NCBI GenBank assembly: GCA_022843745.1 | Contig: JALHNB010000022.1 | Span: forward strand, 31,113-93,951 | Length of the DNA stretch: 62,839 nucleotides | Direction: 5' to 3' | Source: Anaerolineae bacterium | GTDB lineage: Bacteria; Chloroflexota; Anaerolineae; Aggregatilineales; Phototrophicaceae | Part shown: piece after piece, positions 2,011 to 62,575 of the stretch | Layout of the letters: every line of letters starts with the position of its first letter | Numbering within the stretch: the stretch's first letter is position 1 | The notes under the pieces: generated by a model | What the model was told of the DNA's origin: nothing | The model's database searches: none | Seen by the model: the letters and a program-made list of their open reading frames with translations, nothing else | Position numbers and translations under genes: made by a program

Positions 2011-3888
2011 TCAGCGTCCGCGCCGCATCACAGCCAGCACAAAAAGGGGCAGGCGCAGCATCCGTTTGAAGCGCCAGGGCTGCAAATAGAGCCGGAACAG
2101 CCATTCCAGCCCCATACGCTGCATCCAAAGTGGCGCACGGGGCACTTTTCCAGCGATAAAATCGAAAGCGCCGCCCACGCCCATCGCCATTTTCACGCGC
2201 AAACGGGGCAGATTTCGGGCAATCCATTTGTCCTGTTCCGGCGCACCATAGGCCACAAACAAAATATCCGCTTGCGCCTCATTGACCCGCGCGACGATTT
2301 CATCTTCTTCGTTAGGAGCAGGGCTACCGCTGTACGTGCCGACGATCTGCAAGCCCGGATGTCGTTTGCGCAAAATTTCGGCTGCCTGATTCGCCACACC
2401 CGGCGCAGAACCGAGGAAAAATAGCCGCCAGCCTTTTTCTGCCGCCCGCGCCGCGATGATTGGCACACCGTCCGAGCCAGTCACGCGCTCTGGTAGGGGA
2501 TGTCCGAGGTATTTTGCCGCCCACAACAAGCCGACTCCATCCGGCACGCACAAATCGGCACGGGTGAGGATGTTGAAAAAATTCACATCATGTTGGGCGA
2601 TCATCATAAATTCCGGATTGATCGTGCAGACATGATGGGGCGTATTGGTAGGTGCGACTCGCCGAGTCGCTCCTACTGGATTGACCCATTCCTCAATCAA
2701 GGCCAGCCATTCGTCATAAGTGATCCCATCAACAGGCAAGTCAAGAATTTGGATTCGACGGGGAAATACAGACTTGGTTAAGGGCGCACGGCGACCAACG
2801 GAAGTCCCTGTGGGACGGTGCGCCCCTACGGAATCGCCGTTCAAAATTTGCCGGGATGCTGCCAGAACATCTTCTGGCGTGACCATACGGATGCACGTCC
2901 GCGCGGCGCAGCCTTCGCGCAGACCAACTGTGTGACGCACATAGCTGCATGGGCTGCATTCCGGTGCGCTGCGCACGACGATGGATTTTCCATCCGGTGT
3001 CCAAGGCCCCCAGGCATCGGGGTTTCCTGGGCCGAAAATCGCGACAACGGGTGTCCTAACTGATGCTGCAAGGTGCATTACCCCGCTTTCCGCACCAATG
3101 AACAAATCGGATTCTGCGATGACTCCAGCTAATTCACTGAGCGTGGTTTGCCCGGTCAGATCAATCGAATCGGTTTTCATAGCTGCTTTGACTACGCCTG
3201 TGTCGTCGGATGCGCCGCCGACCAGCACGATTTCCGCGCCATATTCGGCCTGGAGGGTATCCGCGACAGCAGCAAATCCAGCGGGATTCCAGCGCCGCGC
3301 CAGACTGTAGCCGCCCCCGCCCGCGTGAATGACGATTCGGGGTTTGTAGGGGAGGGTCTCAGACCCGCCCTTCCTATCAATAGTTTGATCGACTCCGACA
3401 ACCGCCCTACGTGCCGCCGACTCCGTGCCAACCAGCTTCACCAGATCGAGCCAATACTGCGCCTGATGCTTCGCGCCAAAACCTTCGTCTTGCAGGCGAT
3501 GTGTCAGAAACCAACCGTTGCCGTTATCAAGCCCCAAACGTCGTGGACTTCTAGATGCCAGCGCGATTAAAGCGAATTTGAGTGTGCCGAGTTTGAGTGT
3601 GAAATGATGGAAAAAAATAACCGTGTCGTAGCGGCCATCACGGAGTGCGAAAATGCGGCGTAAATTGGCGGGTCGTAGCAGCGCTTTGGAACTGTTGAAC
3701 TGCCGCCGCTCAAAGGTGATGATTTCATCGACCAGATTTGTGCCATTGAGGACAGGTGCACTGTGGGCTGTTGTCAATAAGGCAATGTGTGCATCCGGGT
3801 GAGCCTCTCGCAGGGCAGTGATAGCCGGTGTTGTGAGAATCAGGTCGCCAATATCGGCAAGTTGAACAAGGAGGAATCGATTAGTCAT
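2011..3888 (-). CDS. GT9 - WecG/TagA glycosyltransferase fusion
   Basis: About 625 aa from the preferred ATG at 3888 (an upstream in-frame GTG lies at 3900). Residues 1 to ~345 are a glycosyltransferase family 9 (heptosyltransferase-like) module: QLADIGDLILTTPAITALRE at the N-terminus, VIHAGGGG, and the nucleotide-sugar segment FIGAESGVMHLAA...VAIFGPGNPDAWGPW. Residues ~365-625 are a WecG/TagA/CpsF module (LPVDGITYDEW, TINPEFM, VPDGVGLLWAAKYLG, ERVTGSDGVP, then AYGAPEQDKWI and MGVGGAFDFIAG). WecG/TagA enzymes transfer ManNAc-type sugars to a lipid-linked acceptor. The two are usually separate proteins. Three palindromic repeats are translated in frame inside it (see repeats). It is the last gene of a minus-strand operon with a GT4 and a membrane protein, so a role in surface polysaccharide synthesis is inferred. 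Confidence 0.9.
   Translation of the reverse strand: MTNRFLLVQLADIGDLILTTPAITALREAHPDAHIALLTTAHSAPVLNGTNLVDEIITFERRQFNSSKALLRPANLRRIFALRDGRYDTVIFFHHFTLKLGTLKFALIALASRSPRRLGLDNGNGWFLTHRLQDEGFGAKHQAQYWLDLVKLVGTESAARRAVVGVDQTIDRKGGSETLPYKPRIVIHAGGGGYSLARRWNPAGFAAVADTLQAEYGAEIVLVGGASDDTGVVKAAMKTDSIDLTGQTTLSELAGVIAESDLFIGAESGVMHLAASVRTPVVAIFGPGNPDAWGPWTPDGKSIVVRSAPECSPCSYVRHTVGLREGCAARTCIRMVTPEDVLAASRQILNGDSVGAHRPTGTSVGRRAPLTKSVFPRRIQILDLPVDGITYDEWLALIEEWVNPVGATRRVAPTNTPHHVCTINPEFMMIAQHDVNFFNILTRADLCVPDGVGLLWAAKYLGHPLPERVTGSDGVPIIAARAAEKGWRLFFLGSAPGVANQAAEILRKRHPGLQIVGTYSGSPAPNEEDEIVARVNEAQADILFVAYGAPEQDKWIARNLPRLRVKMAMGVGGAFDFIAGKVPRAPLWMQRMGLEWLFRLYLQPWRFKRMLRLPLFVLAVMRRGR
2648..2676. repeat. 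REP-like palindrome inside the WecG domain (coding)
   Basis: A 29-bp near-perfect palindrome with arms GTAGGTGCGACTCG and CGAGTCGCTCCTAC. It is translated on the minus strand as VGATRRVAPT inside the WecG module. It belongs to the same family as the intergenic copies at 19611 and 59181. Confidence 0.85.
2781..2829. repeat. REP-like composite palindrome at the domain junction (coding)
   Basis: Outer arms AGGGCGCAC (2781-2789) and GTGCGCCCCT flank an inner GTCCCTGTGGGAC palindrome. Minus-strand translation gives VGAHRPTGTSVGRRAPLT. It sits in the linker between the GT9 and WecG modules. Confidence 0.75.
3346..3377. repeat. REP-like palindrome inside the GT9 domain (coding)
   Basis: GTAGGGGAGGGTCTCAGAC followed by the complementary arm GTCTCAGACCCGCCCTTCC, centred on GGGTCTCAGACCC. 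Translated as RKGGSETLPYK between the two Rossmann halves of the GT9 module. Same type as the copy at 24833. Confidence 0.8.
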
Positions 3889-3906
3889 AAAAAGTAACAC
3901 CGCACA

Positions 3907-23910: not shown

Positions 23911-25836
23911 ATGCGTCGCAGCGAGAAGCTTGTCTTATATGCCATTCTGCTCACTGCGGCGTTTTTGCGCACTCAGTATTTCCTTCAAATTGAACATAAC
24001 ATCGACCATGCTTATCCCATCTGGCAGGCGCTGCAAACGCTCGAACATGGCGATTGGCCGCTGACCGGGCAAAGCACATCGGTACTTTTTGCGAACCCCG
24101 CGCTGACCGGTTATCTCTATCTACCCTTCGTCGCGCTGACCCGTTCCCCTCTGAGCGTCTATATTCTGATTATCGCGCTGAATACGCTGGCGGTTTTGCT
24201 GGCGTTCCGCGCGGTGCGAACGCTGCTCGGCACACGTCCAGCATTGATTGCCGCTGCGATGATGGCGGTTAACCCCTGGGTGATCGAGTACAGCCGATCC
24301 GCCTGGGTACAGAGTTTGCTTCCATTTTTCGCCTGTGCGATTGCATGGCTGCTGTGGCCTGTGCTGCTCCGGCGCAGTCGTAATCCCTTCCGCCGGACAA
24401 TTCTCTCGCTGGTCATGCTCATGCTGATGACGCAAACCTATCTGCTGGCGTTCATGATGGTAATCCCAGTGGGCGTACTGCTGCTTATTTTCTGGCGGCG
24501 TGTACCAACCCGCGCGGTGATAATCGGTGGCGCGATTTTTTTCGCGGTATCGGCGATCTACGGCGCGGCTTTATGGACACAGCGCGACTCGGTTCAGCGG
24601 CGGCTGGATGATTTTTCGTCGCACTCCTCGCAACTGAGCAGTGAAGCCTGGAATCACGCCGTGCGGCTGGTTTCCGGCAGCGATTACGCATTAGCGCGTG
24701 GGCAGCTTGCCCCGACGGGAGATTGGCAGCTTCGCCAAAATTTGAGCCAGATCGCGCATTATGGGATTTTGACTGTGCTTGTTTTGGGGATAGGTCGCGC
24801 GATTTTTGTGATTTGGAGGGGGCGAAAAAATATAGGACAGGTCTCAGACCTGCCCCTACAGCAGTCCGATGCGGCAATTATTTTGCTGATCGGGTTCGGC
24901 CTGCCGGTGCTGCTGATGTCCTATGTTGGGCAGCCTGTGCATCCGTTTTACCAATTGCTTGGCCTGCCTGCGGGATATGCGCTGGCGGCGTGGGGCTTGA
25001 CCACCATTTTTCGCCCGGACACGCGAATCGGAGTCGCGATTTTATTGGCGCTTGGGTTGCCATTTGGTGTGCTGATGGGCATCAACAGCGCCCGATATTA
25101 TCAGGAAACGGTGGCGACTCCTGCTATAGACGGGACAGGTGCGCTGCCGCTGGAATGGGGTTTGCGTTTAGGCCGCGCGATCACCGATCATCTGCCACCC
25201 GGCGGCATCGTTTACGCCGATGAAGCACAGTGGACGTTTAACAGCTTTGCCGGGACGACCTTCCCCGTAGTCCGCGATACTCGTGCGCCGATTTTCAGCA
25301 TTGTTCCGCGCGAAGGTGGACTTTATATCGCTCCTCATGCGCCGGGAAGCGATGCTATGAATCCGCCTACATCAGCCACACGCGCCGAAACTCTGACTCT
25401 CCCGGATGGCTGGACGATCACGATTGACGAAAACCCGCCAAACGCCGCCGACTCGCTGGAAATTTCGCACCCGCTGGAGCAGGCAAGCGAACAGGGTATC
25501 ACACTGTTGGGTTACGACCTCGAAAAATTGGAGACAGCCTACACGCTAACCACCTATTGGCGCATTGATTCTGTGAATGCTGACACTCCCAATTGGTTAT
25601 TTGCCCCATTTGCCCACATTTTTGACGAATCCGGCGCACGGGTATTGATCGTCGATGGGGCGCTTGCTCCCGGTAGTGAGTGGCACGTCGGGGATATTCA
25701 CGTTCACCGCATGACCATCAATTTGCCCGCACTCGCCACATTTAGCGCCAGCATCGGGCAGTATGATTCTGTCAGCGGGCGCAATGTCATCTTTTTGCCA
25801 GATTACGTGCCGATGGTTTCGCTGCCACTGGAATAA
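23911..25836 (+). CDS. GT39-type polyprenyl-phosphate-sugar transferase
   Basis: About 641 aa (ATG 23911; a GTG one codon earlier is possible). The N-terminal ~430 residues contain ten or more TM helices, with the first extracytoplasmic loop carrying an acidic position (QIEHNIDHAYPIWQAL) as in ArnT/PMT-fold enzymes. The last ~200 residues are a soluble beta-rich domain. Such proteins transfer a sugar from a lipid donor on the outer face. A palindromic repeat is inserted in frame in a loop between helices (IGQVSDLPLQQ). It follows DedA closely. Substrate unknown. Confidence 0.85.
   Translation: MRRSEKLVLYAILLTAAFLRTQYFLQIEHNIDHAYPIWQALQTLEHGDWPLTGQSTSVLFANPALTGYLYLPFVALTRSPLSVYILIIALNTLAVLLAFRAVRTLLGTRPALIAAAMMAVNPWVIEYSRSAWVQSLLPFFACAIAWLLWPVLLRRSRNPFRRTILSLVMLMLMTQTYLLAFMMVIPVGVLLLIFWRRVPTRAVIIGGAIFFAVSAIYGAALWTQRDSVQRRLDDFSSHSSQLSSEAWNHAVRLVSGSDYALARGQLAPTGDWQLRQNLSQIAHYGILTVLVLGIGRAIFVIWRGRKNIGQVSDLPLQQSDAAIILLIGFGLPVLLMSYVGQPVHPFYQLLGLPAGYALAAWGLTTIFRPDTRIGVAILLALGLPFGVLMGINSARYYQETVATPAIDGTGALPLEWGLRLGRAITDHLPPGGIVYADEAQWTFNSFAGTTFPVVRDTRAPIFSIVPREGGLYIAPHAPGSDAMNPPTSATRAETLTLPDGWTITIDENPPNAADSLEISHPLEQASEQGITLLGYDLEKLETAYTLTTYWRIDSVNADTPNWLFAPFAHIFDESGARVLIVDGALAPGSEWHVGDIHVHRMTINLPALATFSASIGQYDSVSGRNVIFLPDYVPMVSLPLE
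24833..24859. repeat. REP-like palindrome inside GT39 gene (coding)
   Basis: ACAGGTCTCAGACCTG centre with flanks TAGG and CCCCTAC. The reading frame stays open through it (GQVSDLPLQ), in a predicted loop between two membrane helices. Confidence 0.85.
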
Positions 25837-59180: not shown

Positions 59181-59209
59181 GTAGGGGCGCCTCGCCGAGT
59201 CGCCCCTAC
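59181..59209. repeat. REP-like palindrome (intergenic)
   Basis: 29 bp with arms GTAGGGGCGCCTCG and CGAGTCGCCCCTAC, between the secreted protein and the SDR gene. A TTG start at 59178 would translate it; the real start is downstream (59286). Confidence 0.85.
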
Positions 59210-62531: not shown

Positions 62532-62575
62532 GTAGAGGCGAGTCTTTCTTGGACTCGCCCCTATTGTTTTTAATC
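62532..62575 (+). terminator. REP-like hairpin acting as a terminator
   Basis: GTAGAGGCGAGTC and GACTCGCCCCTAT form a long stem around TTTCTTG, followed by TGTTTTTAATC. It is one of the dispersed palindromes and also has terminator geometry after dppF. Confidence 0.65.

Follow-up and report, generated by a model that had tools for sequence, protein, structure and literature searches.

The 62,839-nucleotide stretch of DNA analysed here (the window) contains an open reading frame at 2011–3900 on the minus strand, with its start placed at 3888 by the gene finder, which encodes a 629-aa fusion glycosyltransferase. A GT9 domain (PF01075, Pfam E 6e-27) lies N-terminal to a WecG/TagA/CpsF domain (PF03808, 1.2e-65), and the gene is referred to below as GT9-WecG. 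An initial annotation had proposed that three palindromic elements are translated in frame within it, and this is confirmed: the palindromes are real and the frame runs unbroken through all three. Site 1 (2648–2676, minus strand) is a 29 nt GTAG REP with a tag at both ends that reads VGATRRVAPT and occupies a loop early in the WecG region. Site 2 (minus strand), at the junction of GT9 and WecG, is a long-loop GTAG REP that reads VGAHRPTGTSVGRRAPLT; its location had been given correctly but its extent is about 2777–2829, not 2781–2829. Site 3 (3346–3377, minus strand, with a core at 3346–3370) is a GTAG REP that reads DRKGGSETLPY within the linker that joins one half of GT9 to the other.

The predicted structure of the protein bears out the proposal that each element occupies a loop, linker or junction. 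In an AlphaFold2 model built from 22 sequences (mean pLDDT 81.3), there are five stretches of at least three residues with pLDDT below 50, at residues 63–65, 170–178, 312–328, 356–372, and 407–409. The element-encoded residues in the same numbering are 171–181 (site 3), 354–371 (site 2), and 405–414 (site 1), so that three of the five stretches coincide with REP-encoded segments, all of them predicted to be coil. Residues 170–178 form the linker of the GT9 halves, 356–372 the GT9/WecG junction, and 407–409 the loop leading from a helix (391–402) to a strand (418–423). Three repeats within one gene might also be expected of a decaying pseudogene accumulating repeats, but the 629-aa frame is open, the coding score is positive on either side of each element, and 21 orthologues are 54–69% identical over the length, such that decay is extremely improbable. 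The protein is presumably made and working.

Palindromes of the same family are present in intergenic DNA, as had been claimed, and the window contains copies at 59181–59209 and, between convergent genes, at 62532–62564. A fourth in-frame REP of the window, absent from the initial annotation, is at 24835–24859 on the plus strand and reads GQVSDLPLQ within a PMT_2 membrane-protein gene (23911–25836, plus strand). What looks like a further intergenic repeat lies at about 36–115 of the window, where a pair of near-copies of a GGGAYAAGTGGTAGGGAAAAA stretch, followed by CCACAGAGACACAGAGTACACAGAG, is found.

We surveyed the family in a sample of 2.44 Mb, including the window, representing 31% of the source genome, a 7.96 Mb draft in 117 contigs with an estimated 4% contamination. 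The sample is uneven, owing to that contamination and to contig C18, where REP matches are several times as dense as on the other contigs sampled (42 strand hits in 120 kb). A hairpin directly follows GTAGGGGC in 165 of 259 instances, whereas permuted 8-mers, taken together, are followed by one in 7 of 4598. Palindromes were not required beforehand in this comparison, which rules out chance palindromes. Eleven other tags in front of GGGC gave between 0 and 7 hairpins each among 5–101 occurrences. The element form, as in REPs, is GTAG immediately 5' of a short hairpin, usually 19–21 nt, whose GGGC foot is constant and whose core is variable but compensated. Variation that maintains stem pairing, a further REP property, is evident in 35 distinct even-length 24-mers, with pairing in 97.1% of cells and more double changes than in shuffles (78 vs 18.4), although these figures are overstated because the 24-mers were pre-selected as near-palindromes, a pre-selection that the GTAGGGGC comparison does not involve. 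On its own, the pattern GTAGGGGCG-N(4-34)-CGCCCCTAC has 97 occurrences in the whole genome, and it is found in 34 of 61 genomes, the source genome counted, with 0 or 1 match in each for the backward control; the cores differ from genome to genome among the matches listed.

The counts used here are based on a strict scan for GTAG followed by a hairpin, which identified 127 elements and none in the reversed-sequence control. An energy-based detector had been dropped, as it gave 83 matches vs 64 in its control; its successor gave 66 vs 15, and a relaxed version 144 vs 28, or 80 vs 5 when restricted to at most one arm mismatch. To the 127 strict elements we added 17 relaxed near-palindromes with at most one arm mismatch, a few of which may be false, and one long form by hand, giving 145 elements, or 144 after removal of one near-palindrome judged to be false (within a 5106-aa frame on contig C2). 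The sample counts therefore cover short-loop forms, and long-loop forms only as the single hand-added one. By eye, most of the reversed-control matches of the 66-vs-15 detector belong to a second hairpin family, CCCCTCCC...GGGAGGGG, and peptides resembling it are seen in the linkers of two GT9-WecG orthologues (L236 and L244) and in a 630-aa protein on contig C18 (L115:14194–16086, minus strand). The latter has at least two REPs together with other repeat-like peptides in one region, and no Pfam or NCBIfam match. An effect of core length seen in a first sample disappeared in the larger one (even 14 and odd 8 in open frames, even 58 and odd 35 in intergenic DNA).

The tag is at one end only in 86 of the 127 strict elements and at both ends in the remaining 41, in which the CTAC at the far end could pair with GTAG. 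The doubly tagged copies have the appearance of TA-targeting miniature transposons (TA-GGGGCG...CGCCCC-TA), but a two-ended TA element is not suggested by the one-ended majority, nor by the base preceding GTAG in these (T in 65%, C in 26%, and A in 2%), and we regard this alternative to REPs as very improbable. Close neighbours are scarce, with 5 of 114 neighbouring pairs less than 150 bp apart. The three segments of GT9-WecG are very likely to be copies of the genome's own GTAG-tagged REP family, tolerated in coding linkers and loops.

To place the elements we used gene calls from a purpose-built codon-model gene finder, with 91% of the sample being coding. The 145 elements are predominantly intergenic (110), with 8 overlapping a gene end and 27 inside an open reading frame, the last number becoming 26 of 144 when the false element is removed. 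Elements number 0.51 per kb of spacer and 0.012 per kb of coding DNA, where their density is about 44 times lower. Convergent spacers are favoured (34/108 elements vs 165/1245 spacers, odds ratio 3.0) and divergent spacers avoided (6/108 elements vs 285/1245 spacers, odds ratio 0.2), and this dispersed, mostly intergenic distribution with a preference for the 3' sides of genes is that of REPs.

The 26 coding copies, whose survey together with reading phase had been suggested at the outset, are concentrated in 20 genes, five of which have at least two copies. There are 7 same-gene pairs vs 0.24 expected, and none of 20000 random placements gave as many. Doubtful start codons led us to exclude three N-terminal copies (C6 68834, C9 86478, and C9 33542) from the frame, Pfam and membrane counts, though they are among the 26; the interior set that remains has 23 copies in 17 genes. 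By a simple hydropathy count, 12 of these 17 hosts are multi-pass membrane proteins, compared with 131 among 600 other genes encoding 400 aa or more (p=3e-5); 3 of the 23 copies overlap a predicted membrane segment instead of a loop, which counts against the loop-tolerance reading. Pfam matches among the hosts include four PMT_2 proteins, a flippase, YfhO, a PTPS-related membrane protein, an asparagine synthase (searched as 413 of its 648 aa), a GH3 enzyme, a beta-lactamase-fold enzyme, and GT9-WecG itself; six hosts are without a match.

We compared GT9-WecG with 48 orthologues drawn from a longer list, comprising 28 of 29 first-round loci (L030 being left out) and 21 of 58 second-round loci, with the duplicate L247 removed. 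The other second-round loci were repeated contigs, partial, or single-domain relatives, and one that was kept (L259) is partial. At site 1 the protein is 9 aa longer than the median loop of 47 orthologues, for about 10 aa encoded by the element, and the one equally long orthologue, L236, holds another repeat there. At site 2 the gain is 5.5 aa over the median for about 18 aa encoded (48 compared, 7 as long), and at site 3 it is 2 aa for about 11 aa encoded (48 compared, 21 as long). Gains at five more REP sites, located in NagZ, YfhO and PMT genes, are 5, 1, 3, 6, and 0 aa for 9–10 aa encoded. The clean presence or absence of the segments anticipated by the initial annotation is therefore seen at site 1, which is the only clean insertion demonstrated, because at the other sites the gain in length is smaller than the encoded length; there, the REP sits in a linker that is already of variable length. 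These shortfalls at sites 2 and 3 and at the five sites in three other genes argue against simple insertion at those places.

One scan of the GT9-WecG loci of relatives gave 18 matches vs 2 on the control. The scan of the 48 orthologues detects short-loop forms only and fails to pick up the protein's own site 2, so it would also overlook long-form REPs in relatives. It located short-loop REPs in three orthologues, L010 (sites 2 and 3), L236 (site 2), and L244 (the site-2 linker), 3 of 48 in all, with cores other than those of the gene examined here. Two further orthologues, L237 and L239, have VGSR/VGTR at the site-2 column, where no REP was found. It had been proposed that the same residues, present as ancient sequence in orthologues from unrelated genomes, would refute the initial reading, and at site 2 the different-core REPs and the VGSR/VGTR strings are a mild instance of this; site 2 could be an older insertion, or could reuse a native Val-Gly. 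In some other relatives these GT9-WecG sites are occupied by unrelated repeats. By eye, one PMT loop and one YfhO loop that bear REPs in this genome also bear one in L172 and L150, respectively. Short CTCAGCACTCAGCACT-like repeats of another class are present in the site-3 linker of L236, L237, L238, L239, L246, and L259. The L239 contig (JAPUDW010000422.1) is titled Bacteroidetes and is probably misbinned, as its GT9-WecG gene is nested in a Chloroflexota clade.

For site 2 specifically, a single insertion might have occurred in the ancestor of the present gene, L010 and L236, with the core turning over afterwards through hairpin-templated repair. VG(A/T) begins at the same alignment column in all three, and the cores differ yet remain palindromic. 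The tree is compatible with one origin or with separate ones, but L236 groups with L011 and L012 (100/98) and L010 with L015 and L017 (95/80), in a tree for which bootstrap is not settled, and losses are therefore needed since none of these four partners shows a REP there. We consider a single origin to be possible but doubtful; it concerns the history of site 2 only, and the broader reading of all three segments as REP copies tolerated in linkers and loops does not turn on it.

The reading frame of the coding copies is biased. All 12 interior copies that have GTAG in the sense orientation read it as GTA-GGG, giving Val-Gly (two-sided p=0.0005), although stops are equally rare in the following frame (stop-free in 121 vs 123 of 127 elements). 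Such a 12:0 split would not be expected under plain neutrality. An alternative to tolerance is that the elements are recruited, with the GTA-GGG reading providing a short VGAxxxxxPL linker that helps to separate domains or membrane segments, consistent with both the frame bias and the enrichment in multi-pass proteins, as well as with the use of the same linkers in relatives. However, the bias is not absolute, as the L244 copy uses another frame (RRGDLPGRPY), the 12 copies are spread over only 9 genes and so are not fully independent, and the interior copies tagged only by a 3' CTAC are spread over the three frames (6, 2, and 3). Hydropathy alone could account for the bias, the Val-Gly frame being the less hydrophilic (mean +0.33 vs -0.85), and 45 of the 48 orthologues have no short-loop REP in the gene. 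Recruitment thus appears unlikely, and we favour the tolerance of REP copies where their encoded peptides do little harm.

A mobilising enzyme was sought with profile searches of the genome. These identified two matches to PF01797 (Y1), of which one, on contig C101, is an IS200-type transposase and the other, on contig C1, is weak and falls at the end of a protein with a receiver domain; no GTAG REP lies within 1.5 kb of either. No RAYT or TnpA-REP transposase could be tied to the family in this search, a linkage that is typical of REPs but not universal. Across 61 genomes, a comparison limited by draft assemblies, the number of strong Y1 matches does not correlate significantly with REP number (Spearman 0.23, p=0.08), and such matches are present in 3 of the 6 REP-rich genomes and in 7 of the 27 that are REP-free (p=0.34). 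It is possible that an enzyme acts in trans. On C1, the 1148-aa protein at L050:6105–9551 (plus strand) begins with a response-regulator receiver domain and, towards its C-terminus, resembles IS200/Y1 transposases, but the HUH histidines and catalytic tyrosine are absent there by eye; weak Y1 matches in long frames occur in many relatives. Eleven identically scoring genes for IS200-type transposases lie on contig C1 of another genome, G027, which has no match to the symmetric REP pattern.

The initial annotation had likened the elements to Rickettsia palindromic elements (RPEs) in a different phylum. The likeness stands in that these are palindromes read in frame within genes and that the phylum is another one, Chloroflexota, and it may extend to the genes' encoding functional proteins; the family is known here from sequence, and the functions of the host proteins are predicted. 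The closest kind, however, is the GTAG-tagged REPs: by their tag, the covariation in their stems and their mainly intergenic placement the elements belong there and not with the RPEs. In Di Nocera et al. 2013 (PMC3733652), RPE-4 and RPE-6 are CGTC repeats and RPE-1 a longer element; the tag here is GTAG, distinct from CGTC. The same paper reports GTAG repeats in Chloroflexi and intragenic REPs, with some open reading frames hit twice and an emphasis on DNA synthesis and repair genes, and suggests linkers and loops as harmless sites, so that translated intragenic REPs are of an already known kind. The present family resembles those REPs, as described there, in its tag at one end, short stem and compensated variation, and in being mostly intergenic, between convergent or same-direction genes, with some copies within genes. 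It differs from that description in the 41 of 127 elements tagged at both ends, in the scarcity of neighbours within 150 bp (5/114), in having no linked RAYT that we found, and in coding copies that favour multi-pass membrane proteins. A substrate form of group 3 TnpA-REP, according to PMC8266576, is GTAG beside a perfect palindrome, and the GTAG next to a hairpin seen here is similar, although no REP-flanked TnpA gene was found and C at -2 is not enriched (23%), in contrast to the systems described there. In partial coverage of the literature on RPEs, in-frame palindromes and Chloroflexi REPs, with few subscription journals represented, we did not meet the frame bias, the membrane-protein enrichment, or the refilling of linkers; and among the literature matches listed for the string GTAGGGGCG, none concerns bacterial repeats by title.

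A plausible scenario is that copies are seeded around the genome, either by HUH single-strand processing in trans or by template-switch copying, and that selection would then remove coding copies unless the frame stays open and the landing site is a tolerant linker or loop, where a copy may be close to neutral. GT9-WecG would offer three such linkers, and some relatives hold REPs or unrelated repeats in the same ones.

These observations extend translated REPs to an uncultured group of Chloroflexota. Tentatively, REPs in this order may be a recurrent, frame-biased source of linkers, with the coding copies kept largely as VGAxxxxxPL-type peptides in linkers between domains and in multi-pass membrane proteins, and with different REPs or other repeats refilling the same linkers from genus to genus. 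With 23 interior coding copies in 17 genes from 31% of the genome, the family provides a case for measuring which frames and which positions in proteins tolerate new peptides. It also carries a warning for annotation, in that VGAxxxxxPL-like strings in such proteins can derive from repeats.
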